Positions 33,838-59,012 of a stretch of DNA of 64,000 bases are shown in pieces. Numbering within the stretch: the first letter of the stretch is position 1; each line of letters opens with the position of its first letter. Below the pieces are notes generated by a model that searched no databases, was not told the origin of the DNA, and worked only from the letters and a program-made list of their open reading frames with translations. Where the stretch lies: contig OX387197.1 in NCBI GenBank assembly GCA_947561715.1, positions 27,182,266 through 27,246,265 on the forward strand, in the 5' to 3' direction. This DNA is from Ascidia mentula. Taxonomy: Eukaryota; Chordata; Ascidiacea; Phlebobranchia; Ascidiidae. Both the position numbers and the translations under genes were made by a program.

Positions 33838-35647
33838 TTAAACCAGACTTTTTGACATATAAGGACCATCAAGCTCATAACCAAGCTTACGGTAATAATT
33901 CCTTGTTCCCACACCCGATATTACAGTGACCTTAGTTGAGCCGTGTTCTTCCAAGGCAATCCTCTCCGCCTCCTCCATGAGGAGTGTGCCAAACCCCTGA
34001 TGCTGAAATTTTCCAGGATCTCTTGAACTGACTGGTACAACACTGCCATAAACATGCAACTCTCGTACTACTGAAACACCTTTGTCTTTCAGCTCTGGCC
34101 TGAATGCATCGGCAGAGCACTTTCTTAATCGAAGCAACCCAATGAGAATATCCTGCTCTGGGTCTTCATAGGACAAGAAGGTTTCCCACCCACCATTAGC
34201 CGTGTAGTCCCTTCTTATTAATTCCACCTCATAAGGTTTCACTTTATGGTGGATTTCCTGAATTCCAGCCTCCCTAGTCCTGACATCTCGACATGTGGTG
34301 CCAAGATCCTTCATTCGGGCAAGGACAAGCTCTCTCAGGTTACCATGCTCAACACCAGAGGTCACTAGTGGCATTGGTATATCCCTCTGGATTCTGCAAC
34401 AATTCACAAACACAACATTACTTATACAAGCATTCAAGCACAATCTTGTACACAATTAACTGACTCGAAACTTAAAAAGAGCAAATTATTTGAGCAAAAC
34501 TATGAATAGAACTGTGTGATGTCAAAGTAACAGCAACAAAAATCAAGCCAAGTTACCTGTACACTCTAGTCCATGGAGGGACAAGAGCCAGAATCCTTGC
34601 CACAAGGTCGATAAGAGTAGAAGGTGAGTAACTATTGTATCTCCCAGTTTTCCATAGTTCATACAACCCCGTTCCACGTATTACAAGTGTTGGATAAATC
34701 TTCAACCCATCGGCACGGAAAGCTGGATTTTCAAAAAATTCAACAAACTGTTCAATATCCCTCTCCAGGGGCACGTTTGGGAGGTTGGGCATCATATGGA
34801 CGACCACTTTGTAGCCGGAATCCTTTGCAAGTTGGAAGCATTCGGTCACTGCTCTTACAGTATGCCCTCGGTTGGTGTCACGCGCCACATCCTCATACAC
34901 ACTTTGCACACCAATTTCAAGTCGTGTGCACCCATAACTGAGCATCTCACTGAGGTGCTTTTTAAGACAATAGTCTGGTCTGGTTTCTATGGTGATGCCG
35001 ATACATTTTGTTTTGCTTCGTTCGGAATATTTGACAGCTTCAGCAACATTACTGCTCACATGTCCAGACAAAGCATCGTGTAGATTTCGGATGAAGTAAT
35101 CTTTGTAGTTATCGGGAAGAGACATAAACGTCCCGCCCATTACAATGAACTCAACTTTGTCAACTGAATGTCCGAGCTGCTTAAGTTGCTCCACACGGTG
35201 GCGTGTTTGCAGGAAAGGGTCGTATCGGGCCCGGATGGCCCTCATGGAAGTGGGTTCATAGCCAGTATATGATTGGGTCGAGTATTCAAAGTCAGAGTCC
35301 GGACCACCAGGGCAATACACACATATGTTACCGGTCATGTTAATGTGTGGACATCTATGTGGTTTGCACATAACCGCAACCACTGCAATTCCACTTGCAG
35401 TCCTGACTGGTTTTGCCTTTAGTTTTGGCAGTAGAGCACGTTTGTAGCGGCTTGGAACCGCTGCAATGATGTCAGTCAAGCGGGGTTGGGACTTCAATCC
35501 ATGCTTTGATGATATTTGACCTTTAAGTTTGTTGAGGTTAACATCTTTGCTTTCTTCATGAGCTTCGATCAATACCCGCACGATCTCTGCTGTCGATATT
35601 GCAAGAAGTTCTGATTGTGACTGCGTTGGCTCTTTGTTTTTCCCCAT
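33838..35647 (-). CDS. ELP3: Elongator complex protein 3 (ELP3), radical SAM / GNAT tRNA-modifying enzyme
   Basis: Catalytic subunit of Elongator, which installs the cm5 group on wobble uridines of tRNA using acetyl-CoA and S-adenosylmethionine. Two exons on the minus strand, 34557-35647 and 33838-34393, phase 2 junction, 548 residues (human 547). The radical SAM region carries C94, C99, C109 and C112 ([19 protein letters not shown]), followed by [20 protein letters not shown]; the last three cysteines are the Fe4S4 ligands. Further signatures: [60 protein letters not shown]. The C-terminal acetyltransferase domain has [32 protein letters not shown] (acetyl-CoA loop) and [13 protein letters not shown]. 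One of the most conserved proteins of the window. THG1L lies 333 bp downstream in the same orientation. Confidence 0.98.
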
Positions 35648-38172
35648 TGTAAAGACTTAAAACTCACGCAATACAGAAAATAATTTTTGCATTTATTTCG
35701 ATCCAAACTTCTCAAATTTTTCTTCATTAAAAGTAAATATTGTTGTTGAGTTCTTCTTCAGTCAAAATTGTTTTAGCAAAAAAATTAACTAAATATTACT
35801 TTTATACTTAACACAGCCATTAAATCGCAATAGAGAAATCCAACAATAATGAAAAATAAGTTGCAATAGATGTCTAGGGTTTAAATGTGACTATTTAAGG
35901 CATTTAGTCTACTCAATCTCAATCTCTTTCATAACTAACTGCACTGCAATAACTTACAGAAGTGTAACGCAGTTCACACTCCATGAATGCCGATATTATT
36001 CACACATCATGTCTGCATTGTTATACAACATAGTTTGCAAACATATTTCGCAAGTTTCCATTCATTGATAATATTTGGAAAAACCTCAACTTGACGAAGA
36101 ATTGCGCCAGATTGTATCATTGCTAACCACGTGGTCTGTGTCATGGGTGATTGAGCAGGATTTAAATTTGCGTTTTCTGACCACAGATTTATCATTACAA
36201 ATGTTTAAACCAGTTATTAATAGATGTAATGATTTATTCATTTGATTTTCATTTGAAACATTTGATTGATTTGCTACAGGCAGCTCCCCACAAAAATGTA
36301 CTCATTTTAATTTCAATCGAGCTTGAGAGGTAGGTCTGTAGAGAAACTTTTTGATTAAACGTCATTTTTTTTTGTGTATTGAAATTCCGTACAAGCGCAA
36401 CTGGCATGTAGGTCAATCGCTTCGTTTCTATTTCGCCAGATGTGTTAATCTCGCACAGATGTGTTAATCGGTTTATATTTTTAATTTCGAAATCGACGTT
36501 CCTTAATAATCGCATTTTTCTCATTTTCGAAAATATTATAAATACCGTCGCACGGCCTTAAGCCGGGGGGAATATAGAAAACGATATGGACAGAGGATAG
36601 AGAACACTTTCGAAGCGATAGAACTACGCTCTGGACGCTGCGCGTTTTGTGTTGTTTGTTTTGAATCAAGGTATGTTTGTGTTACGTTTTATGTTTGGAT
36701 TAAAAGTCGCAAAGGTAGTTTCTTTGGTAGAAGTGTTTAATAGATTCAGGAGTCAGATATACGGCAGTGTTTCGTTCTGCAAACTTAGGTCCCTGCAGGT
36801 CCCCGGTTTTTGCAGTCGTTCCGTGTTCGCATCGTCGTCGAAATAACTTTGTATAAAATGCGAACCCTGTTGTTACTTCAAGCAGAAACAAAATCCCACA
36901 CAAATCGCTGCATACTAATTACTACCACAACTGCATTGGTTGTACCACTTATTTTATTAATTGACAAACATCAATGGAACACAATGAATAATAAAGAAAA
37001 TTTCTTGCACATGTGCATATTATTAACCAGGTCTGATACAAATAGAACATAGTGCATATAAGTACAATTTGAGCTTAAAACACATTTTTTTATTAAAATA
37101 TTATAAAATATGTTTTAAGCATGCATAATGGAAATGTAATTATATCTTTCTATGCCACATTTTGTCAAACATTTTCAATAAATTTATAGGATGTCCCATT
37201 ACAATTAAACTTGCATAAACTATAAATGTTATCATACAACATGGCAACAGGAAAAAAATTAACATATATGTCATAAATGAAAAACAGTTTGTTGCAGAAA
37301 GTAACAAGTAACATGCTTCCATTACAAATACTCGGGGCAAAAAAAATGCATTTTTAAATGTTTGTAAAACTTGTGATGAATGCTCAGGGTGCACGATTGT
37401 ATCCAGTAATTTTCTCTTATTTGCAATTTTGTTCATGCACAAGAAAAAAACGTTCCGTTAATTGTGGCAATGTAATATACAACTAATTAAGCACATTTCA
37501 ATGAGCAGAAAAGATTCAACCATTCGCCAAACTATTATGTGCTCAGACAAGGGATTATTTTAGAAAACTTACTTAAGTTTTTGGTACAATACAATTAACC
37601 CTAAATTACATACAATGCTAATTAACAAGCTCTAATGTCCCACAACCAACACAGGCTGGTGTTAAAAACAGTGGGCATTTCATTACTGCGTTGCACAAGA
37701 ACAAATGCACGCTGACAGTTTTGTCTGGATGTATCGACAAATTAAAACATAGCAAACAAATGTGAAAAAATACATAAACCCAAAGATGTGGATATATTTG
37801 TTAAATACTGCTCAAAACGTATTATGTCTAAAAGGTATTGTCCTGAGATTTGCTACCAGAGAAAAGAAGAAATGACAGAAAAATATTTTCTGAAAAGTTT
37901 TACCCTCAAAAGAGAAATTTTGTAGTTTGGTGTTGTTTGGAAATGAAATGGGTATGATAACAATCAGTTTTTGGTCACCATGTACAACTGAAGAACTGCA
38001 TACTGTGCAGAAACCCTGAGAAGTTGAGGCATCTGGGCCTTGGAGCCTGTCCACACTTGGTGCTACCGTGCAATTATTTCCGAACTTTATAATTTGCTTG
38101 CTTATTAGCACATTTGGATGGAAGATTGTCGCCTAATTAGCAGCATACTACATGACCTAGTTTCTGTCAAAA
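35648..38172. other. Intergenic region between ELP3 and PANK, with an orphan promoter
   Basis: About 2.5 kb. The left part holds the ELP3 promoter, the right part the 3' UTR of PANK. A TATA-like core promoter and possible first exon lie at 36537-36670 (separate entry). No coding exon with family resemblance was found on either strand. Confidence 0.45.
36537..36670 (+). promoter_or_regulatory. Orphan TATA core promoter with a spliced first exon
   Basis: TATAAATA at 36537-36544 is followed about 25 bp later by a GC-rich block (gcacggccttaagccggg) and about 100 bp without long A/T runs, ending at an excellent donor (AATCAAG|GTATGT, GT at 36671-36672). This looks like a promoter plus non-coding first exon on the plus strand. 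No downstream coding exon was recognised before the opposite-strand PANK gene, so it may drive a non-coding transcript. Pattern recognition only. Confidence 0.3.
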
Positions 38173-41461: not shown

Positions 41462-44400
41462 ATGACGAGGCAGCAAATTCTAAACTGCAAGTTCTCTAGC
41501 TGGTATAACTGTTTTACGGAAATCACAATAAAAAGGTAGGTAACGTTTTGTTTCATGTTTTTCAGAAATACCGTTAACCTTTCTTTTGTATGTATGGATG
41601 AAACGTGTCAAAATGACTTTTGCAAATTGCTTTAAGCTTCTTACCACGCCTCGGAAACAGTTAATTTCACATATTTGTAGAACCCTTTCATGCAGCAGTA
41701 GTAATAACAATCTTATTACTAAGCCAAGCTTAATAAAACTAGAGCACAGAAATGTGCTGAAGTTATCAGGGAAAGACACACTTGACTTTTTGCAAGGTTT
41801 GGTTACAAACGATGTGTTTCAACTTCAAGCGAAGCAACGCATGTTTGCAATGATGCTCGACACAAGAGGGAGAATAATGCATGATTTTATGATGTACTGG
41901 TTGTCTGAAAACCAGGAGACAGCGGTATTACTGGAATGTGAGGGGAAATCCCAAGACAAAGTCATGAAGAGTCTAAAAATGTACAAACTTCGTAAAGATG
42001 TGGCAATTTCTCATGCTGCCGACATCTCTGTGTGGCAATTGGTTGCTCCACCAGAAACTGAATTGGGTTCATTAGGATTTCCAACCGACCAGGTGGTTTG
42101 CAAAGATCCACGATCTTCTACAATGGGATGGAGAATTATTACAGACAGACCAAAGGTCGAGCTGACAACAGATGATGTAGATATCTACCATGACCACAGA
42201 CTGAAGATGGGAATACCGGAAGGTGTAATCGATTTGCCTCCTGGCAAGTGTTCACCTTTGGAAAGCAATATTGACCTTTTGAATGGGATCAGTTTTGATA
42301 AAGGATGTTATCTTGGCCAAGAACTAACAGCTCGTACATATCACACTGGAGTAATCAGAAAAAGACTGCTTCCTTTTACAACACAAAGTGACTTACGTTT
42401 TGTTGAAAATGAAAAGATTTATAATGAAGATGGCAAAGTTACTGGAAAAATCAGGTCATCCAATGGTAAAGGCCAAGGGCTGGCATTGATGAAGTTGGAT
42501 TGTCTTGAGATGAAACATTTTTGTTCGGACAGATATGTTGAAATATTCCCGTACAGGCCTGACTGGTGGCCTAAACATTTGGATCGATGATGTAACATTG
42601 TTGCGTATATTCCTAATCAAATTTAATATTTGGATGTTGTACCTTGAACTGTTGCTACAAATTGCTTGGTTGAAGTCCATATCTCATTAACAACACCAGC
42701 AACACCATGCGTTTATTTTTTAGCGTAGTTATTCCGCTACCCGCTGATTTTGTGAGTTACCTTCAAGACAACGGAACTCTAGTTTTGCCGGAAGGATTTA
42801 ATGTCGAAAACAAATATGAAGAAGATGAAGAAAATGAAAACAATCTTTCACACTGGGACGAACAGACAACCGACCAATCAGAGGTAAGATCATTAGAATT
42901 ATATTTTTCAAAAAAGTATGTATTTTGTTGACTACAGATAGCTGGACCTACTTTTTCGAGTCTTTTGGAAACTATTACGAAGGCTATTGATGAACTTGGA
43001 GGAAAAGTTTTTCCAAAGCTAACCTGGAGCTCGCCAAAAGATGCTGCATGGATGACTTGCAATTCACTCAAATGCACGACCCCAGGTAAAACAGATCTCT
43101 CAATCACTTGATGGCAATTGTTCCACATCATGCCTGCCTGCCAGTATCAGATGTTAAACAAGCTTTTGAGCAAAAGTTCGTTGAAAATTTTCAGGTGAAA
43201 TTATTCTATTGTTGAAGAGCTCAGATTTTGTCATGCATGACTTGACATCAGCTTTCGAAGGTTGTGAAGAACCGATTGATAGAAACTTTATTCAACATGA
43301 GGTCGGTTAAACTTTTATCTTTTGTTGTGACTTCCGTCTATGTTTTAAAGAACGAGGGAACATATAAATGTTATATAAGCCTTCACTATTAACATGTGGT
43401 GTAACAATCTACTTTCCAGCTTGTTTTGCGAAAGTGGGCCAATCTAGTACAAGGAATGGAGTTCCGTTGCTTTGTAAAGGAAAATATTTTAATTGGCATT
43501 AGTCAGAGGAACCACAGACAGTACTATGACTACATTGAGTTGGACAAATATGATTTAGCCGATGCCATCAGTCGTTTTGTTGCTGAAAAAGTTATTGGAA
43601 AATTCATGGATTTGGATTGTAAGTAGAAGACAATTGTTTGCAAACTGTTTTAAGTTTGTGGTGCTTGAGATATTTTACATAAACGAGAAATAATTAAAAT
43701 TGCTTCTTCCTAAAAATGATTTTTGTTTTTTGTAGTTGTTGTGGATGTTTACAAAAAGAGAGATGTAAGTTTTCATGTTTCCATTTTAATTATTTCGCTT
43801 TTCTAAACACAAGTATTGCCACACCCAGCATATTTGGTTGCCTATTTGTGTGAATATTTAAATTGTTTTTGTTAAAGGGAGGAATGTGGATAATTGATTT
43901 TAACCCTTATCAGAAGAGCACAGACTCTCTGTTATTTTCATGGGAAGAATTAAATTCTGGGCAACTTCAAGAAAATACCCAGTCTGTAGATCTAAAACGT
44001 GTCGGTAAGTTTGTTTTAGTAAAGAATTTCACTGCTGCTTTCTAAAAACTGACAAAAATATTGGAATTATTCGCATCATAGTTTTAACTCGTAGCACATA
44101 ATTGCAAATAATTCAACAATATTGTAGGCTTTCCTGGGCAAATTTACCAACCTGAACAATAAATTTTACTTTTTTTCTGGTTAACAAAAAAAACTTTTTT
44201 CTTATTATTGCAGCCACCAATATTACTTCTACCCTGACATATTTAACATAACTGCGTGCGTAGTAACTTTCTTTAAGGTTGTTGAGTAAATTTTCTCACC
44301 GTGTCTTGCACTCTCGCAACAATCTTGTGTAGAACCCAAACCTAGCCATCTTGTAACTGATGTCCTGGCTTTCGCACGCTTTATGACGACATAGTTGGTA

Positions 44401-50421: not shown

Positions 50422-51912
50422 CATGTGGCAAGCGCATAGTGGCATGTGTAACATACGTTGACAGAATGAGGGATGGAAAGTTTGGTTTTGAAAGAGATTA
50501 AGCGAGATGTGTTTGTTGGTCGTGGAATGAGATCCCTCCACTTTTACTATTGTTTCACCCTTTTTGAATATTTTCTTAGGTTTCTGGTAGTACTTGAATT
50601 CTTTTCAAATAAAACGTTTTCTAAATCTTTGCAAACTGTGTAGTTTCCACGAAAGTATATAGTGTTGTAATTAAACTTCATCAAACAGTTGTGTGTCAAA
50701 ACAATGCACATATCCACACTCACATAGTGTAACAATCGTGTGGCGTTCAGTCAGCTCGACACTAACTATATGAAAGATAATGTATATTTGTTGAAATTCT
50801 ACACACATTCATGAAGAAGTAAAGCTTTAGAAAATTGTATAATAGCCTTAAACAATAGTTTGATAAAGTTATGTTTCTCCCATTTTAGCATACAATAAAT
50901 TCCACAATGTCTCCATACATTCTATAATAAGGTGGTGGTTATTTACTGGGGAGGGGTATTGTGTAAAATCTCTTTGATATTCATAAACGTGCCAGAGAGG
51001 GCGCTCTTAATTTGCATAAATCATTAAACTCGTCCAACTTCTGTGAGCGATGGAGGAAGGGCTTGTGGTGCCCCAAGTACATCTTCTCCTAACTGTTATC
51101 CCACAATGACCGTCTGTTGCATAAAAGTTTTAATCAAGTTCGGCGAAATGTGGCAAATGGTAACGTGTGCAGTTTGTATAAGTCTGAAGCATGGTTGGTG
51201 GTTGGAATCCCGTCTGACCCAACTCATTTTCATGTCAGTTAGACAAAGAAGAATTTGGTAGGTTGCGAAATTACCAAATTCCTTCCTAGTGAACAAAGTT
51301 GTCTCTGTTATACAACATGAGAAAGAAAAGGAAAATATTAAATCGCATAATAAAGTAATATTTCGTCGTAAAACCAAAAAATGCCTGTGTATCAATCAAT
51401 ATATAATTATAGCTTGGGCAACAGTTTCCTTTGCTGTGTGACGACAAATCCAAAATAACACGGATACTTAACCATGAACTCGATGTTCCACTTGAGATGA
51501 AACAACCACTCCAACCTGATGTTCGGTTCGTGAAACAAAAGCAGAAAATTATTGGGTTTATTTCGATTAATGTTGGTTTACGCAAAGTGGAAAACGTTAA
51601 GGTGACTCGAATGAAAATCTGATTTTAGGTTAATAACAAACAACAAGCTGTAGGTTCGAAGCGTAAAAATGTCATGATCCAAATTGTTATGTAACGGTTT
51701 TTCCAGATTCTCCGCGAGAAAACAATCAACACATTCTTAATTACCCCCCAGCAGACACGACCATCGAATTCGACAATTTACCATTACTTTATTCAAAACT
51801 ATTCGTTTCGGTTAAACGCGACCGACCGAAAATTAACCATTTCTCCCAACAAAGAACGGTTATGTAATTAGGGATAGGCCGAACCGTGAGAATCAAGCGG
51901 AAACTTTTCGGA

Positions 51913-51920
51913 TATATAAA
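51913..51920 (+). promoter_or_regulatory. TATA box of peptide gene copy A
   Basis: TATATAAA about 120 bp before the start codon, in a promoter of over 200 bp that is nearly identical in copy B. A conserved block gttatgtaattagggatagg lies ~50 bp upstream. Strong TATA promoters are typical of abundantly or inducibly expressed secreted peptides. Confidence 0.65.
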
Positions 51921-52040
51921 CCCTCAAGCAACACCAACCAGCTATCATTCCTACAAACAACTTTCAAAGGAAACAAACAAGTTGTAAAAGAAAAGTTGTA
52001 ACAAAACTCGGTGCAAGTCAGATACTGAAATCACTTGAAG

Positions 52041-52636
52041 ATGGAAAGCAAAACTTTTTACGTGGTCGTGGCTTTGGTGGTTATGATTTCTATTGCAGTT
52101 TGTGAAGCTGATTCAAATCCTTCTGGCGAAAAGTCAAATGTATTGATTGAAAGGTGCATTCTGTTTGATAAAAGTCGCTTCTATAAAAGTCGGTTGAAGC
52201 AAAAATGTAATGTATTTAATCACAATATTAGTTTACTGTTAGTTAAATAATTCAAACTTCTTTCACGTTGCAAAAATTTTTCGAAGGCAATTTTTCAGAC
52301 AATAAAATTTAAACAACCTGTAGAACCTTACATTTAAACTGATTACTATCGTAACCCTAGAAACAAGTTTGTAAATATTTCAGAATTCGGAGATACGTCA
52401 GCAGAGGTAGATGGTGCGGACCTCGCCTGAAGATCCAATGTTACAAGTTGGCCTACAGGTGTCACGCATCAGTGCTTAACAAGCGAAGCGTGAAAGAGGA
52501 AGAACAAACTATCGACAACCATGAGCAACCGGAACAAGAAGGGAAAATGGTGGGAAGAGAAAGAAGAGCTTTGAAATTCAAGAGAAGAAGATTTTTTCGG
52601 GCAAACTGTGGTATTTGCAGTTCAAGATGTTGGTAA
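52041..52636 (+). CDS. Secreted cationic cysteine-rich peptide precursor, copy A
   Basis: Family not recognised. Two exons, 52041-52153 and 52384-52636 (junction AG|A), 121 residues. Signal peptide MESKTFYVVVALVVMISIAV, cleaved near CEA. A short acidic propeptide ends at RIRR (38-41), a furin-type site. Then a basic segment YVSRGRWCGPRLKIQ.. of ~29 residues with C49, C57 and C64 (CX7CX6C) ending at KR 71-72. Next an acidic spacer (SVKEEEQTIDNHEQPEQE) ending at RERR 96-99, and last ALKFKRRRFFRANCGICSS.. with C113, C116 and C120 (CX2CX3C). Three cysteines on each side of a removable acidic linker suggest a disulfide-linked two-chain mature peptide, insulin-like in layout, but the cysteine pattern is not that of insulin or relaxin. 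High net positive charge suggests host defence. The donor is the weak form GAAAG|GTGCAT; copy B has GTGAGT. Confidence 0.85.
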
Positions 52637-53197
52637 CAAGTTTATCTTCTGTCCACAAATTACACAAGGATGCCATTGTTTGAATTATCTGTTTGTTTTA
52701 ACTGATAGAAAGCAAGCATTGCTTTTGCTTTATATTTTCAAAATCATTGAAATCATATTCCACCATCTTCATTTTTTATATGTTTTCTATTTTATTAAAC
52801 TGCTTTCTATCGTCTGTTACTGATGTTGAATGCTTCAACTTATCGTGCTGTGTTTTCTATCATGTTGTACATATTCATGCTTTGCACAGTCTCTAAACTT
52901 GTTTGTGACGTAATAAATCACAAAAATATGGAAGATCTTGATTGTGTTTGTACGATTCAATGTGTATTCGACTATTGACATTGCTAAGGTAAATATCGCA
53001 TGCAAGGCCGAGGTTTTCTATTTCTTCGGCGGATTATTTAGCGGGAGCAACCTATGCACAAAACTTTGTGAATTTAATCTAAGTAGGCCAAAAATATTTT
53101 AACGGTAAAAAAATGGAACGAAACCTTTACTAAAACCACCCTAATTAGAATACAGGGGTTGTCAAGATAGATTACAACCAATTTCCGAACCTACAAT

Positions 53198-53305
53198 AGT
53201 TAGCCTACAGTTGTCACGCATCAGTGCTTAACAAGCGAAGCGTGGAGGAGGTAGAACAAACTATCGACAGCCATAAGCAACCGGAACAAGAAGAGAAAAT
53301 GGTGG
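53198..53305 (+). pseudogene. Broken third copy of the peptide gene (exon 2 fragment)
   Basis: About 108 bp in the loop of the inverted repeat match the middle of exon 2 of the two intact copies, from the second-chain cysteine region through NKRSVEE.EQTID..KQPEQEEKMV. The signal peptide exon, the first cysteines and the whole C-terminal CX2CX3C domain are absent, and the left edge falls at the inner end of the left arm. It differs from both intact copies by several substitutions (for example N to S and E to K in the spacer), so it is older than the A/B divergence or evolves freely. It marks at least three copies of the gene at this locus in the past. Confidence 0.8.
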
Positions 53306-53891
53306 TTGATTGTGTTTTTACGCTCGAATATGGATTGTTGTCAAGAACTACAACTTCAACGACTGGTGTTATCAAAATAGTTTGCGGAATTTTTTTACTT
53401 TGTTAAAAAATCTCACCTAATCAGTAAGAACACAATGATTTATTTTTTCGTGTAATTCAATTGTTCCGATGAGATTTTCTTACTTTCACCACTGATATGG
53501 ATGTATTTAACTCGTGTATAACTTTGTACACACGGTCAGCCTGAAGAAAATTTACTTTGAAAATTTGAACTCACGACTGCTTGGTTGGTCATCAATGTTT
53601 AATATACATCTGTGCCCGAAAAATTTCCAACTTTTCAGAGGCAACAATCCTGGTTTTAAGTTCCTAATCCTGGGGCGGTAAACTTTCTGGTGGACTTGGT
53701 TTGTCATTGAATATCTTGATCCTGTTCACAGTCAGTCCACTAAAACACGTTTTTTGGAAATCTATGCGGTGATGAACGCAGCATACGGGGCCAGTTCACA
53801 AGTGCGTGGTGCGATTTAATCGAAGTGAAGAACCATCCCTGATGTATGCCACACCTATTGCAGGGTGGTCATCCCTTTTTTACACTTAAAC
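53200..53891. other. Loop between the inverted arms
   Basis: About 690 bp of single-copy sequence separating the arms. Apart from the third gene fragment at its left edge I see nothing: no open frame of note, no terminal repeats, no RNA gene. Confidence 0.6.
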
Positions 53892-54444
53892 CTATTGTAG
53901 GTTTGGAAATTGGTTGTAATCTATCTTGACAACCGCTGTATTCTAATGAGGGTGATTTTAGTAAAGGTTTCGTTCCATTTCTTTACCGTTAAAATATTTT
54001 TGGTCTACTTAGATTAAATTCACAAAGTTTTGTGCATAGATTGCTCCCGCTAAATAATCCGCCGAAGAAATAGAAAACCTCGGCCTTGCATGCGATATTT
54101 ACCTTAGCAATGTCAATAGTCGAATACACATTGAGTCGTACAAACACAATCAAGATCTTCCATATTTTTGTGATTTATTACGTCACAAAAGTTTAGAGAC
54201 TGTGCAAAGCATGAATATGTACAACATGATAGAAAACACAGCACGATAAGTTGAAGCATTCAACATCAGTGACAGACGATAGAAAGCAGTTTAATAAATA
54301 GAAAACATATAAAAAATGAAGATGGTGGAATATGATTTCAATGATTTTTAAAATATAAAGTAAAAGCAATGCTTGCTTTTATCAACAAACAGATAATTCA
54401 AACAATCGCATCTCTGTGTAATTTGTGGGCAGAAGAGAAACTTG

Positions 54445-55014
54445 TTACCAACATCTTGAACTACAAATACCGCAGTTTGCCCGAAAAAATCTTCTTCTCT
54501 TGAATTTCAAAGCTCTTCTTTCTCTTCCCACCATTTTCTCTTCTTGTTCCGGTTGCTCATGGTTGTCGATAGTTTGTTCTTCCTCTTCCACGCTTCGCTT
54601 GTTAAGCACTGATGCGTGACACTTGTAGACCAACTTGTAACATTGGATCTTCAGGCGAGGTCCGCACCACCTACCTCTGCTGACGTATCTCCGAATTCTG
54701 GAATATTTACAAACTTGTTATCTCTAAGTTTCAGATCATCATTAGTTTAAATGCGAGGATGCACAGCCTGTTCAAATTGTCTTGAAAATGTTTTTTTCTT
54801 TTTTTGGCGATTGAAGTTTAAATTAATAAACTTAAACTAATGTGCGATTAAAAGAAGCAAAAAAGGAAGCGACTTATATGAAAAATCAAAACAAAACTCA
54901 CCTTTCAATCAATACATTTGACTTTTCGCCAGAAGGATTTGAATCAGCTTCACAAACTGCTATTGAAATCATAACCACCAAAGCCACGACCACGCAAATA
55001 GTTTTGCTTTCCAT
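54445..55014 (-). CDS. Secreted cationic cysteine-rich peptide precursor, copy B
   Basis: Inverted paralogue of copy A. Exons on the minus strand 54902-55014 and 54445-54697, the same sizes as in copy A (113 and 253 nt), 121 residues. It differs at six positions: F6I, Y7C (both in the signal peptide), A61V, R63K, K75E and G91E. The RIRR, KR and RERR processing sites, all six mature cysteines (49, 57, 64, 113, 116, 120) and the entire C-terminal chain from RERR onward are identical. The intron donor is canonical (GAAAG|GTGAGT). Promoter with TATA at 55135-55142 (minus). Expression is probably shared with copy A because the ~250 bp upstream are almost the same. Purifying selection on the cysteines and basic sites is suggested, though gene conversion could also keep them alike. 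Confidence 0.85.
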
Positions 55015-55134
55015 CTTCAAGTGTTTTCAGTATCAGACTTGCAGCGAGTTTTGTTACAACTTTTCTTTTACAACTTGTTTGTTTCCTTTGAAAGTTGGTT
55101 GTAGGAATGATAGCTGGTTGGTGTTGCTTGAGGG

Positions 55135-55142
55135 TTTATATA
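55135..55142 (-). promoter_or_regulatory. TATA box of peptide gene copy B
   Basis: TATATAAA read on the minus strand, at the same distance from the start codon as in copy A; the flanking sequence (gaaacttttcggatatataaa) is shared with copy A. Confidence 0.65.
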
Positions 55143-56465
55143 TCCGAAAAGTTTCCGCTTGATTCTCACGGTTCGGCCTATCCCTAATTACATAACCGTT
55201 CTTTGTTGGGAGAAATGGTTAATTTTCGGTCGGTCGCGTTTAACCGAAACGAATAGTTTTGAATAAAGTAATGGTAAATTGTCGAATTCGATGGTCGTGT
55301 CTGCTGGGGGTTAATTAAGAATGTGTTGATTGTTTCAAAGCGAGAAATCTGGAAAAAACATTTCATTACAATTTGGATCATGACATAATTTTACGCTTCG
55401 AAACCTACGTTATTTAGTTTAGGTTTCACTTTCTCTTCTTCAAATTTTCTATTTTGCTCAAAGCAACTTATTTTTTATAATTAACTGCTTTTATTTCACA
55501 AACCGAACATTAGTTTTTTTGTTGAAGTTCGGTGAACGTGTCTGGGGGTTAATTAACGTCAGTTTGGACAAATCCTGTGCTGGAAACCGCACATACAGTT
55601 ACAAAAATTTCTGCATAAATGAAAGTGTTGGATTTGCAACAAAATATTTGGAAATACGGCAAAAAACTTAATATAAATCACCGAAAAAAACTCACACAAA
55701 GTAGTTTTGCGCCCTTGCATTGACATTTTTCTACCGGATACGCAAAGAAATTCTCTCAAAGATTGTCAAAGTGGCGCTGGATGCAAATGAGAATTAAGTG
55801 CCCAATAATTGCATGTTGTTGTGCCAGTACCCGAAAATTAGGTCGGTACAATTGTTTACGGCCTGTGTTGCGGTTGTTTGGAGAAAGATACAAGTAGGCT
55901 TGAATGTAAATCATCATAATGTGACAAAGGAAACAATTGTCCAAGCTTTATGATGCTATTTTTTGGTTTAACGACCAAATATTATTTTATTCAACCATTT
56001 AATATTTTCGTTTTCTTTCTTATGTTGTATAACAGAGACAACTTTATTTACTAGGAAGGGATTTGGTAATTTCGCAACCGATCGAATTCCTTTCTGTCTT
56101 GCTGACATGATAATGAGTTGGACCAGACGAGATTCCAAGCACCAACCTTCAGACTTAAACAAACTGCACACGTTACCATTTGCCGCAATTCGCCGAACTT
56201 GATTAAAACTTTTATGCAACAGACGGTCATTGTGGGATAACAGTTAGGAGAAATGTACTTGGGGCACCACAAGCCCTTCCTCCATCGCTCACAGAAGTTG
56301 AACGAGTTTAATGATTTATGCAAATTAAGAGCGCCCTCTCTGGCACGTTTATGAATATCAAAGAGATTTTACACAATACCCCTCCCCAGTAAATAACCAC
56401 CACCTTATTATGAAATGTATGGAGACATTGTGGAATTTATTGTATGCTAAAATGGGAGAAAGAAT

Positions 56466-57455
56466 TTAATGAACTATTATTGCAAAAAGATACTCACTTT
56501 CCAGCGTTTTGTCCTTGTACATAATTTAAGACATAGCATCCCTTTCGGTTTAATATTAGCAAGATTGACAATTGGTGTCCGCGGTTGAGGACAGTTAAGT
56601 CAACTAACAGTAAATATTGTTCAAAATATCAAATGCAACTCACCTTACTAGCCATCACTTACGGCTAACAAACGTTGATTGCAAATGAAATTAACTTAAA
56701 AACAAACACATTTAAAATCCGAACATTTTCTTCGCTATCCTCAGAACTTCTACAATTTAAAAAGAACAGCAAGTTCATCCCCAGCATAAATGCAACTGTC
56801 GCAAGTTCGTGTGTTGAAAACACTGTGGTGATAGCTAATTGTTACGTCACTGACGCCTGTTCGAATGAATCAACGGCGGGAAGGGGAATTAAGTATAAGC
56901 ACTGAAGCCATGAGGTGCGCGTGTAGGAGGCAGATATTTTTCACTTCTTGCAGAAAAACACATAACTAAGTTACAAAACGTAAAAAATAGTTTGACATAT
57001 GCATGGATGACAAGAGTTTGGTTTCGTTGCTGCGCTTGACGCTTTTTTCGGCGAACAAAATCCGAAACTACGTTCCAGGAAACGATTAACTGCACGATTT
57101 TGTCATTAAATTTCCGTTTCGCATCAACAGATTTTAAAAGCGGGAAGATGTGTTTGTGAAACTTGTTTTAAGCTCAATCATTAACAACGTTGGCTGAATA
57201 ACTCGCCCATCAGCTTATATTTAATCTGTTTGATTTAATGGCTCCAAAGTTCAGATGTGGTTTTGCTTGGAAAGCATTTGTGGCGTTCATGTTTGGACGG
57301 CCTTGATTTCTGCAAAATGATTGTAATAAAGGAGTATTTTTATTGTGAAAGGGTTCAAATTTTTGTAAATTGCAAAGAAATGAATTAAAAAACTGTTTTT
57401 GTTTTTTCTGTACATGTGATTATATGCTCTCAGTGTGACTCAGGAGGAAAGTCAA
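56466..57455. other. Intergenic region upstream of GK5
   Basis: About 1 kb, AT-rich. A splice acceptor (atgctctcag, AG near 57431) lies 25 bp before the GK5 start codon, so the GK5 5' UTR is probably spliced in cis or in trans. Nothing else recognised. Confidence 0.45.
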
Positions 57456-59012
57456 ATGGAAAACCATTGCCAAGAAGATAAAGTTGTATTGTCATTGGAT
57501 ATTGGCACCACAAATGTTCGGTGTTATCTTTACAACAAATCTGCTGAAATTGTTGGAAAATCAAGTGCACCTGTCAAAATACTTTACCCAGAACCACAAG
57601 CTGCAGAAATAGACCCAGAAACTTTGTGGCAGACAATATTGTGGGTTATAAATGATTGTTTAAAAACCTCCGAGATCCCCGTGTCCAATGTTGTGTCAAT
57701 GGGGATTTCAACGCAGCGTGGAACGTTTGCTGTATGGGACAGTATCAGTGGTAAGATGTATCATAACTTTCTTGTGTGGCAAGACACTAGAGGTGATTCC
57801 ATTTCAAAGTCGTGGAATGATTCTTACCTCATGAAAACTGTCCGAGTGGCGTCTACAGGTTTACATGCAGTCACACAGAAAAAAAAGTTTCTGGCAGCTG
57901 CCGTTTTGAGGTTTAGAACACAGCATGTGTCTATTCGTCTCCTGTGGTTGATGCAGAAGTACCCTAAAATAAAGGAGCTTGGAAAGGAAGGAAAAGTAAG
58001 ATTTGGTAACATCGACACTTGGGTGGTTTGGAAATTAACTGGTGGAAAAGTTTATGCCTCGGAGTATTCATGTGCAAGTGCCACTGGTATATATGACCCA
58101 TATCTTCTCGACTGGAGTGGATTCTTCTGCTCACTCATGGGGATCCCTAAAAAAATCTTTCCCCCTGTGCTGGACACTGATGCAGATTTTGGGTGCTGTG
58201 AAGAGGAGCTATTTGGTTCTCCAATTCCCATAAGATGCATTATTGGTGACCAACAGGGTGCCATGTTTGGACAATGCTGTTTCACTCCCGGGGATGTGAA
58301 ACTGACGCTCGGCACAGGAGCATTTCTTAATTTAAACGTTGGCTCCCGACCCCATACCTCAGTGGCTGGGTTTTATCCAATTGTTGGATGGAAAGTTGGA
58401 GGTGACCTTACTCACTTAGCTGAAGGGAGTTCCAATACAGCTGGGACAGCTATTGAGTGGCTACAATCTATGGGACTTATAAAGGAACCAAAAGATTGTG
58501 AGAGTCTAGTTGAGGAATGTGATTCATCTAACGGAACGTACTTTGTTCCAGCATTTACTGGTGTGCAAGCTCCTATCAATGACTATTTGGCATGTGGCAG
58601 TATAATGGGTGTCACTCAAGACACACTGCCATGCCACATTGTACGAGCTGTACTTGAATCATTAGCTTTCAGAAACAAACAACTTTTTGATTCCATGAAT
58701 TCTGAAACAAGCCTGGCCATAAATAACATTGTCTGTGATGGTGGTGTGTCTGTAAATCCATTTATCATGCAGTTGACTTCAGACCTGTTGGGTCAAAAAC
58801 TTCAACAACAATCGCATAGCGAGATGTCAGCTCTTGGTGCTGCTTTTATTGCCGGACTATCGACAAAGTTTTGGAAAGATAAGCAGGAACTTTGTGATCT
58901 GGTCAAAGTTACAAAAACATACATTCCTAACAAGAATAAACAAGTTAAATACCAACCCATTATGCAAAAGTGGTGCAACGCGTTGTCAAGGTCCCTAGGG
59001 TGGTACAAGTGA
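57456..59012 (+). CDS. GK5: Putative glycerol kinase 5 (GK5), FGGY carbohydrate kinase
   Basis: FGGY-family kinase, predicted to phosphorylate glycerol or a related polyol; in mammals linked to skin lipid metabolism. A single exon of 518 residues from ATG 57456 (human 529, from memory). N-terminal FGGY domain: VVLSLDIGTTNVRCYLY (phosphate loop), MGISTQRGTFAVWD, NFLVWQDTRGD, FGNIDTWVVWKLTGG, SCASATGIYDP. Linker with IIGDQQGAMFGQCC, whose Asp is the expected catalytic base. C-terminal domain: KLTLGTGAFLNLN, GFYPIVGWK, EGSSNTAGTAIEW, FVPAFTGVQAP, VRAVLESLAFRNKQL, VCDGGVSVNPFIMQLTSDLL (adenosine motif), SALGAAFIAGL. A 16-residue region with basic KKK (~125-130) is the GK5-specific insertion. The absence of introns in a multi-exon family is notable. 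SRRD follows 303 bp downstream on the same strand. Confidence 0.95.
   Translation: MENHCQEDKVVLSLDIGTTNVRCYLYNKSAEIVGKSSAPVKILYPEPQAAEIDPETLWQTILWVINDCLKTSEIPVSNVVSMGISTQRGTFAVWDSISGKMYHNFLVWQDTRGDSISKSWNDSYLMKTVRVASTGLHAVTQKKKFLAAAVLRFRTQHVSIRLLWLMQKYPKIKELGKEGKVRFGNIDTWVVWKLTGGKVYASEYSCASATGIYDPYLLDWSGFFCSLMGIPKKIFPPVLDTDADFGCCEEELFGSPIPIRCIIGDQQGAMFGQCCFTPGDVKLTLGTGAFLNLNVGSRPHTSVAGFYPIVGWKVGGDLTHLAEGSSNTAGTAIEWLQSMGLIKEPKDCESLVEECDSSNGTYFVPAFTGVQAPINDYLACGSIMGVTQDTLPCHIVRAVLESLAFRNKQLFDSMNSETSLAINNIVCDGGVSVNPFIMQLTSDLLGQKLQQQSHSEMSALGAAFIAGLSTKFWKDKQELCDLVKVTKTYIPNKNKQVKYQPIMQKWCNALSRSLGWYK

Follow-up and report, generated by a model that had tools for sequence, protein, structure and literature searches.

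Two inverted genes encode six-cysteine precursors

Within the 64,000-nucleotide stretch of the Ascidia mentula genome analyzed here (the window), two short genes in inverted orientation raise the question of what kind of peptide they specify, whether it would mature as one chain or two, and what role it may have. Gene A (forward strand, 52041-52636) and gene B (reverse strand, 55014-54445, with its start codon at 55014) each encode, by translation, a precursor of 121 amino acids in two exons, and a count by eye gave six residue differences between the two proteins. Both precursors follow the same residue order: a signal peptide, a short propeptide extending to RIRR, a CX7CX6C chain (chain 1), KR, a spacer, RERR and a CX2CX3C chain (chain 2) with a terminal Trp. 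The first-pass annotation had placed both precursors and these motifs here, and translation, together with a homologue at 17.63 Mb on C1, bore this out.

Exon 1 of gene A (52041-52153, forward strand, delimited by translation and a GT donor) encodes the signal peptide, assigned by eye to residues 1-23 with the -3,-1 rule, and the start of the propeptide; a TATA box lies 128 bp 5' of the gene. A phase 2 intron with GT..AG ends (52154-52383) separates it from exon 2 (52384-52636), whose translation runs from RIRR to the stop codon. Alignment of the translated exon placed chain 1 (29 amino acids, net charge +6) at 52394-52480, the dibasic KR, a putative cleavage site followed by Ser, at 52481-52486, an acidic spacer with a computed net charge of -5 at 52487-52555, RERR, a putative furin-type site, at 52556-52567, and chain 2 (CX2CX3CW, 22 amino acids, net charge +7) at 52568-52633. 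On the reverse strand, translation delimited exon 1 of gene B at 54902-55014 and exon 2 at 54445-54697, with its intron at 54698-54901; within exon 2, chain 1 spans 54687-54601, KR 54600-54595, RERR 54525-54514 and chain 2 54513-54448.

The two genes occupy opposite arms of a 5.6-kb near-palindrome (50874 to 56461) whose innermost arms are 692 bp apart. Inverted repeats define the left arm, with gene A, at 50874-53199 on the forward strand, and inverted repeats with identities taken stretch by stretch define the right arm, with gene B, at 53892-56461 on the reverse strand. A broken third copy, a 108-bp fragment of exon 2 on the forward strand (53198-53305), retains the end of chain 1, KR and the spacer and is without chain 2; it is 93% identical to 52446-52553, with a protein identity of 81% and one TAG within the match. 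The introns at 52154-52383 and 54698-54901 are homologous and about 70% identical with many gaps, in contrast to an identity of 96-97% across the palindrome's exons, promoters and 3' flanks; our guess is that patchy gene conversion lies behind this difference. Between 51391-51660 and 55387-55960 the arms are largely non-homologous (60.6% over aligned columns, with 326 gap columns), with well-matched arms on both sides.

Several other features were recorded in the window and the genome. Long open frames at 34553-35656 (reverse strand), 41544-42590 (forward strand) and 57420-59012 (forward strand) may represent genes resembling ELP3, IBA57 and a glycerol-kinase-like gene, respectively. An exon of a voltage-sensing phosphatase matches, at 28 of 57 residues, a PDB chain annotated as voltage-sensor containing phosphatase and taken here to be the Ciona protein; if this exon is orthologous, the match argues against Ciona as the source of the genome. 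Mitochondrial COX1 (contig C79) contains 16 AGA/AGG codons that read as Gly under the tunicate code, at positions that we assume to be Gly sites in other COX1 proteins, and the matched stretch is stop-free, so that a tunicate is the most likely source.

A multigene family with a tandem array

Searching the genome that contains the window with protein queries and reading the loci identified at least 15 loci beyond A and B, so that the 17 loci considered here are a lower bound. Gene A exon 2 as query recovered a distant locus on C1 (17.632 Mb) with E = 2.9e-18 and all six cysteines, whereas gene A exon 1 alone matched A and B only in this genome. Thirteen tandem copies (1, 1b and 2-12) were found by protein search and locus reading on C70, from 15.6597 to 15.6915 Mb, and a further single locus lies on the reverse strand of C70 at 14.740 Mb, where exon 1 is not fixed and the exon join is presumed. 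A weak genome match was also seen on C71 at 2.87 Mb (E 2.27). An open frame with the full set of six cysteines is present at 14 of the 17 loci, the exceptions being copies 5 and 8, each with a nonsense codon, and copy 1b; copy 12 has an extra cysteine in its spacer. The dibasic-Ser motif after chain 1 is present at every one of the 17 loci (KRS at 16, RRS at one), and 13 of 16 copies carry a TATA motif at a distance of up to 220 bp.

All 15 copies measured share a phase 2 boundary after exon 1. Eight loci (copies 1, 1b, 2 and 9-12 and the 14.74 Mb gene) have a second intron, absent from the other nine, between chain 1 and the spacer with chain 2, so that the signal peptide, chain 1 and chain 2 may occupy one exon each. 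Copies 3-8 (C70, 15.670-15.682 Mb) are without intron 2 at the splice point and read DEQENELS there, as does spliced copy 2 (DEQ|ENELS); copies 9, 10 and 1b read ESELS at the join. Array copies with intron 2 (1, 1b, 2 and 9-12) and without it (3-8) thus stand side by side on C70. Non-coding frames that are open by chance were ruled out by the distant homologue found at E = 2.9e-18, the common phase 2 introns and the conserved chains.

The cysteine chains are the best conserved part of the precursor

An alignment of nine of the 17 loci (A, B, the C1 gene and copies 1, 2, 3, 9, 11 and 12) has invariant columns at M1, C49, G50, C57, C64, H65, K71, R72, S73, R96, C113, C116, C120 and W121. The cysteines and the dibasic site are thus among the most conserved features, in keeping with the first-pass description of a family of secreted, cationic peptides with six cysteines; sites that resemble cleavage sites are conserved as well. 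Pairs among seven representatives are on average 62% identical over chain 1 (first cysteine to KRS), 47% over chain 2, 28% over the spacer and 26% over the signal peptide plus propeptide, and 57, 39, 28 and 25%, respectively, when the shared cysteines are left out. Column permutation without the shared cysteines gave p of about 1.5e-4, a value that is indicative only, as columns and copies are non-independent and the borders were set by the analyst. Conservation is higher in the mature chains than in the signal peptide, propeptide and spacer.

Synonymous divergence is saturated in most copy comparisons. For copies 2 and 3, where it is unsaturated, dN/dS values are 0.10/0.75 in chain 1, 0.11/0.56 in chain 2 and 0.59/1.51 in the signal peptide plus propeptide; the spacer, at 0.05/0.46, shows constraint equal to that of the chains, so it is not free in every pair. 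Between A and B, dN is 0.02 and dS 0.07 overall (0.03 and 0 in chain 1), and the changes are too few to judge.

Processing and disulfide pairing

Net charges of chain 1 and chain 2 were computed for six precursors and are +6 and +7 for A and B, +6 and +8 for the C1 gene, +4 and +9 for copy 3, +4 and +10 for copy 1, and +5 and +11 for copy 11, so that both inferred chains together carry +13 to +16; chain 1 would be 29-32 and chain 2 22-29 amino acids long. Three details of the first-pass annotation do not extend to the whole family. An acidic propeptide is weakly apparent in A (-2 over 14 residues), whereas the equivalent stretch of array copy 3 carries +8. The spacer, described as acidic, has a net charge that ranges from -1 to -8 among the six precursors, with -5 and -8 in the window genes and -1 in array copy 1, and in copy 12 it appears basic by eye. 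Finally, RIRR precedes chain 1 only in A, B and the C1 gene and is absent from the array copies.

An RX(K/R)R motif lies between KRS and the first cysteine of chain 2 at all 17 loci; at the 16 loci tested, 8 to 81% of shuffled versions of that segment contain it too. In the C1 gene, the sole RX(K/R)R lies inside the presumed chain 2, and RKTR is the likelier site. The best sign of cleavage is the dibasic-Ser motif, which persists although the spacer that follows it varies from subgroup to subgroup, and in our judgment maturation into two chains is likely. In the proposed pathway, cleavage by a furin/PC-type protease at KR|S and behind RX(K/R)R or RXXR would release the spacer, which would be discarded, and would leave the two chains joined through at least one interchain disulfide.

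A rather unlikely alternative is that the precursor yields a single-chain, six-cysteine cationic peptide with a one-domain fold, the KR and RXRR sites being uncut or partly cut in vivo. Such an arrangement has a parallel in the turgencins of another ascidian, which, in the part of the report available, carry six cysteines and a KK-containing loop on one chain (PMC7024374). It would also agree with the frequent chance occurrence of RX(K/R)R in stretches this rich in Arg and with the conserved spacer of copies 2 and 3. The variation of spacer sequence and charge across subgroups beside a constant dibasic-Ser motif argues against it, as does the location of the two chains on separate exons at eight of the 17 loci.

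With three cysteines per chain, at least one bond must be interchain if all cysteines are paired within the dimer. Exon 1 of copy 1b runs from C70:15662235, and the chain regions of this copy lie at about 15662605-15662983. Copy 1b, whose frame is open by eye, has Phe in place of the third cysteine of chain 1 (Cys3) and Ile in place of the first cysteine of chain 2 (Cys4) in a by-eye alignment. Since joint loss is expected of bonded partners, this single case hints that Cys3 and Cys4 form an interchain bond; the Gly that follows Cys1 is missing from this copy too, and so it may simply be decaying. We considered two straight helices linked by three interchain bonds, for which the cysteine angles fit; this arrangement is hard to build over spans of 15 and 7 residues, and full pairing is therefore not claimed.

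Comparison with known peptide families

Searches of Pfam, NCBIfam and PDB with family members gave no convincing relative, in line with the earlier view that the family is unrecognized, and our best reading is that it is new to these resources. For nine members, Pfam listed five families at E up to 10 (most matches with E higher than about 0.1 are lost to the HMMER filters), and all were taken as chance: YxzE (three members, best E 0.062), Conotoxin (one member, E 0.017), and SANTA, a zinc finger and EphA2_TM (one member each, E 0.13 to 0.71). The NCBIfam matches to MAG5150 lipoprotein (two of nine members, E 0.0066) and to lipo_NDxxF, PRK13428 and SerThrKinPrkT (one of nine each, E 0.042 to 0.15), as well as two B-cell receptor beta chains from PDB (E 0.83 and 1.1), were treated in the same way. 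Literature listings with the openings of abstracts contained no description of the family, and six exact sequence fragments were unmatched there; an uncharacterized entry for the family may well exist in tunicate proteomes.

Insulin and relaxin precursors are organized as signal peptide, chain, connecting peptide and chain, with dibasic or furin-type sites and six cysteines, two in the B chain (CX11C) and four in the A chain (CCX3CX8C). The present family resembles them in precursor order, site type and cysteine number, with two-chain cutting putative here, and differs in its 3+3 cysteines (CX7CX6C and CX2CX3C, at 14 of 17 loci), its high positive charge and its many copies. Membership in the insulin family was rejected on the different cysteines and the absence of the Pfam Insulin model from the five families listed for nine members. 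A whole-genome search with PF00049 matched two places, both on C72 and below the cut-off, and has little power, since no insulin gene passed. Defensins, which the first-pass annotation had set aside together with insulin and relaxin, do not fit either: no Pfam defensin model was among the same five families, and the cysteines fall in two triplets rather than in one continuous six-cysteine domain.

Halocidin, from Halocynthia aurantium, carries one cysteine per chain, unlike the three per chain here. The available part of one report describes it as an alpha-helical heterodimeric antimicrobial peptide with cysteine (PMC7024374), and it shares with our family an ascidian origin and a cysteine-bearing heterodimeric form, the latter putative here. 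From the same partial source, turgencins A and B of Synoicum turgens are amidated single chains of 35-36 amino acids with the pattern CX3CX4C(X7-8)CX2CX3C and bonds Cys1-Cys6, Cys2-Cys5 and Cys3-Cys4 (PMC7024374). As described there, they resemble the family in being ascidian, cationic and six-cysteine peptides with a C-terminal CX2CX3C triplet, and their Cys3-Cys4 bond would match the paired absence of these cysteines from copy 1b; their first half, CX3CX4C, differs from the CX7CX6C and the long spacer with cleavage-like sites found here. We rejected membership because the CX2CX3C half alone agrees; hhalign of the family against turgencins gave a probability of 0.4%, and a turgencin A query of this genome, run without a positive control, found no match. 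The linear cationic antimicrobial peptides of Ciona (LCAMPs), including Ci-MAM and Ci-PAP, are, in the part of the study available, linear and cysteine-free with anionic proregions, belong partly to gene families and have a highly conserved signal peptide within families (PMC7387483). On that partial account they are, like the present peptides, secreted, cationic, ascidian and partly multigene, whereas our family has six cysteines and a divergent signal peptide and falls outside a cysteine-free helix definition. St-CRP-1/2 of Synoicum turgens, also cysteine-rich ascidian peptides, are short (18-19 amino acids) and neutral, with three disulfides in a CC-C-C-CC pattern, according to the portion of the source available (PMC13208793).

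Candidate functions

The features seen here, a high charge, a young tandem array that includes defunct copies, and duplication in a palindrome, are frequent in genes for host-defense peptides. Our preferred reading, to which we give about an even chance, is that the family comprises tunicate precursors of secreted, cationic, cysteine-rich host-defense peptides with insulin-like processing. We judge a role in host defense to be more probable than not, and the size and recent origin of the array, together with the charge, favor it over a hormonal one. A compact cationic dimer would act on microbial membranes or surfaces, and the many near-identical copies would serve dosage.

Two observations stand against a defense role. 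Sites resembling kB occur in only two of 16 proximal promoters, and the mature part exceeds the signal peptide in conservation, the reverse of the Ciona LCAMPs as described in the accessible part of that study (PMC7387483) and a pattern that would suit a receptor ligand. We therefore kept as a rival a two-chain hormone- or pheromone-like ligand that would act on a receptor after excision of its connecting peptide and would be insulin-like in architecture only. The signal-chain-spacer-chain order, the dibasic site at all 17 loci, the constraint on the mature chains and not the signal, and the CG that opens the chain 1 cysteine motif in all nine aligned loci are consistent with such a ligand. 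It is nonetheless unlikely, given a family of 17 loci that includes a tandem array of recent origin, near-identical copies and two copies with nonsense codons, a net dimer charge of at least +13 in the six precursors, a Pfam Insulin model unmatched among nine members and a different cysteine pattern. Another cationic role, as a tunic or adhesive component, a granule-packing peptide or an allorecognition or self-sterility factor, would accommodate the many copies, high charge, TATA promoters and conserved mature chains, yet it is highly improbable for a family without the long low-complexity repeats seen in many structural proteins.

We tentatively propose an undescribed tunicate class of cationic 3+3-cysteine heterodimers, made by insulin-style excision, joined by an interchain Cys3-Cys4 bond and expanded by tandem and palindromic duplication, which would in effect be the two-chain counterpart of turgencin-like single-chain peptides. 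A genome-wide screen for Ciona antimicrobial peptides dropped cysteine-containing candidates before helix analysis, according to the available part of the report, so that such a family would have been missed there (PMC7387483). The genes give exact masses of the predicted chains. Should the chains be cleaved and bonded in the way that the genes imply, a close relative of the vertebrates would possess a multigene family of heterodimers with three cysteines per chain, and, if this is true, two-chain processing of the hormone type would have been turned to the production of bulk defense peptides.
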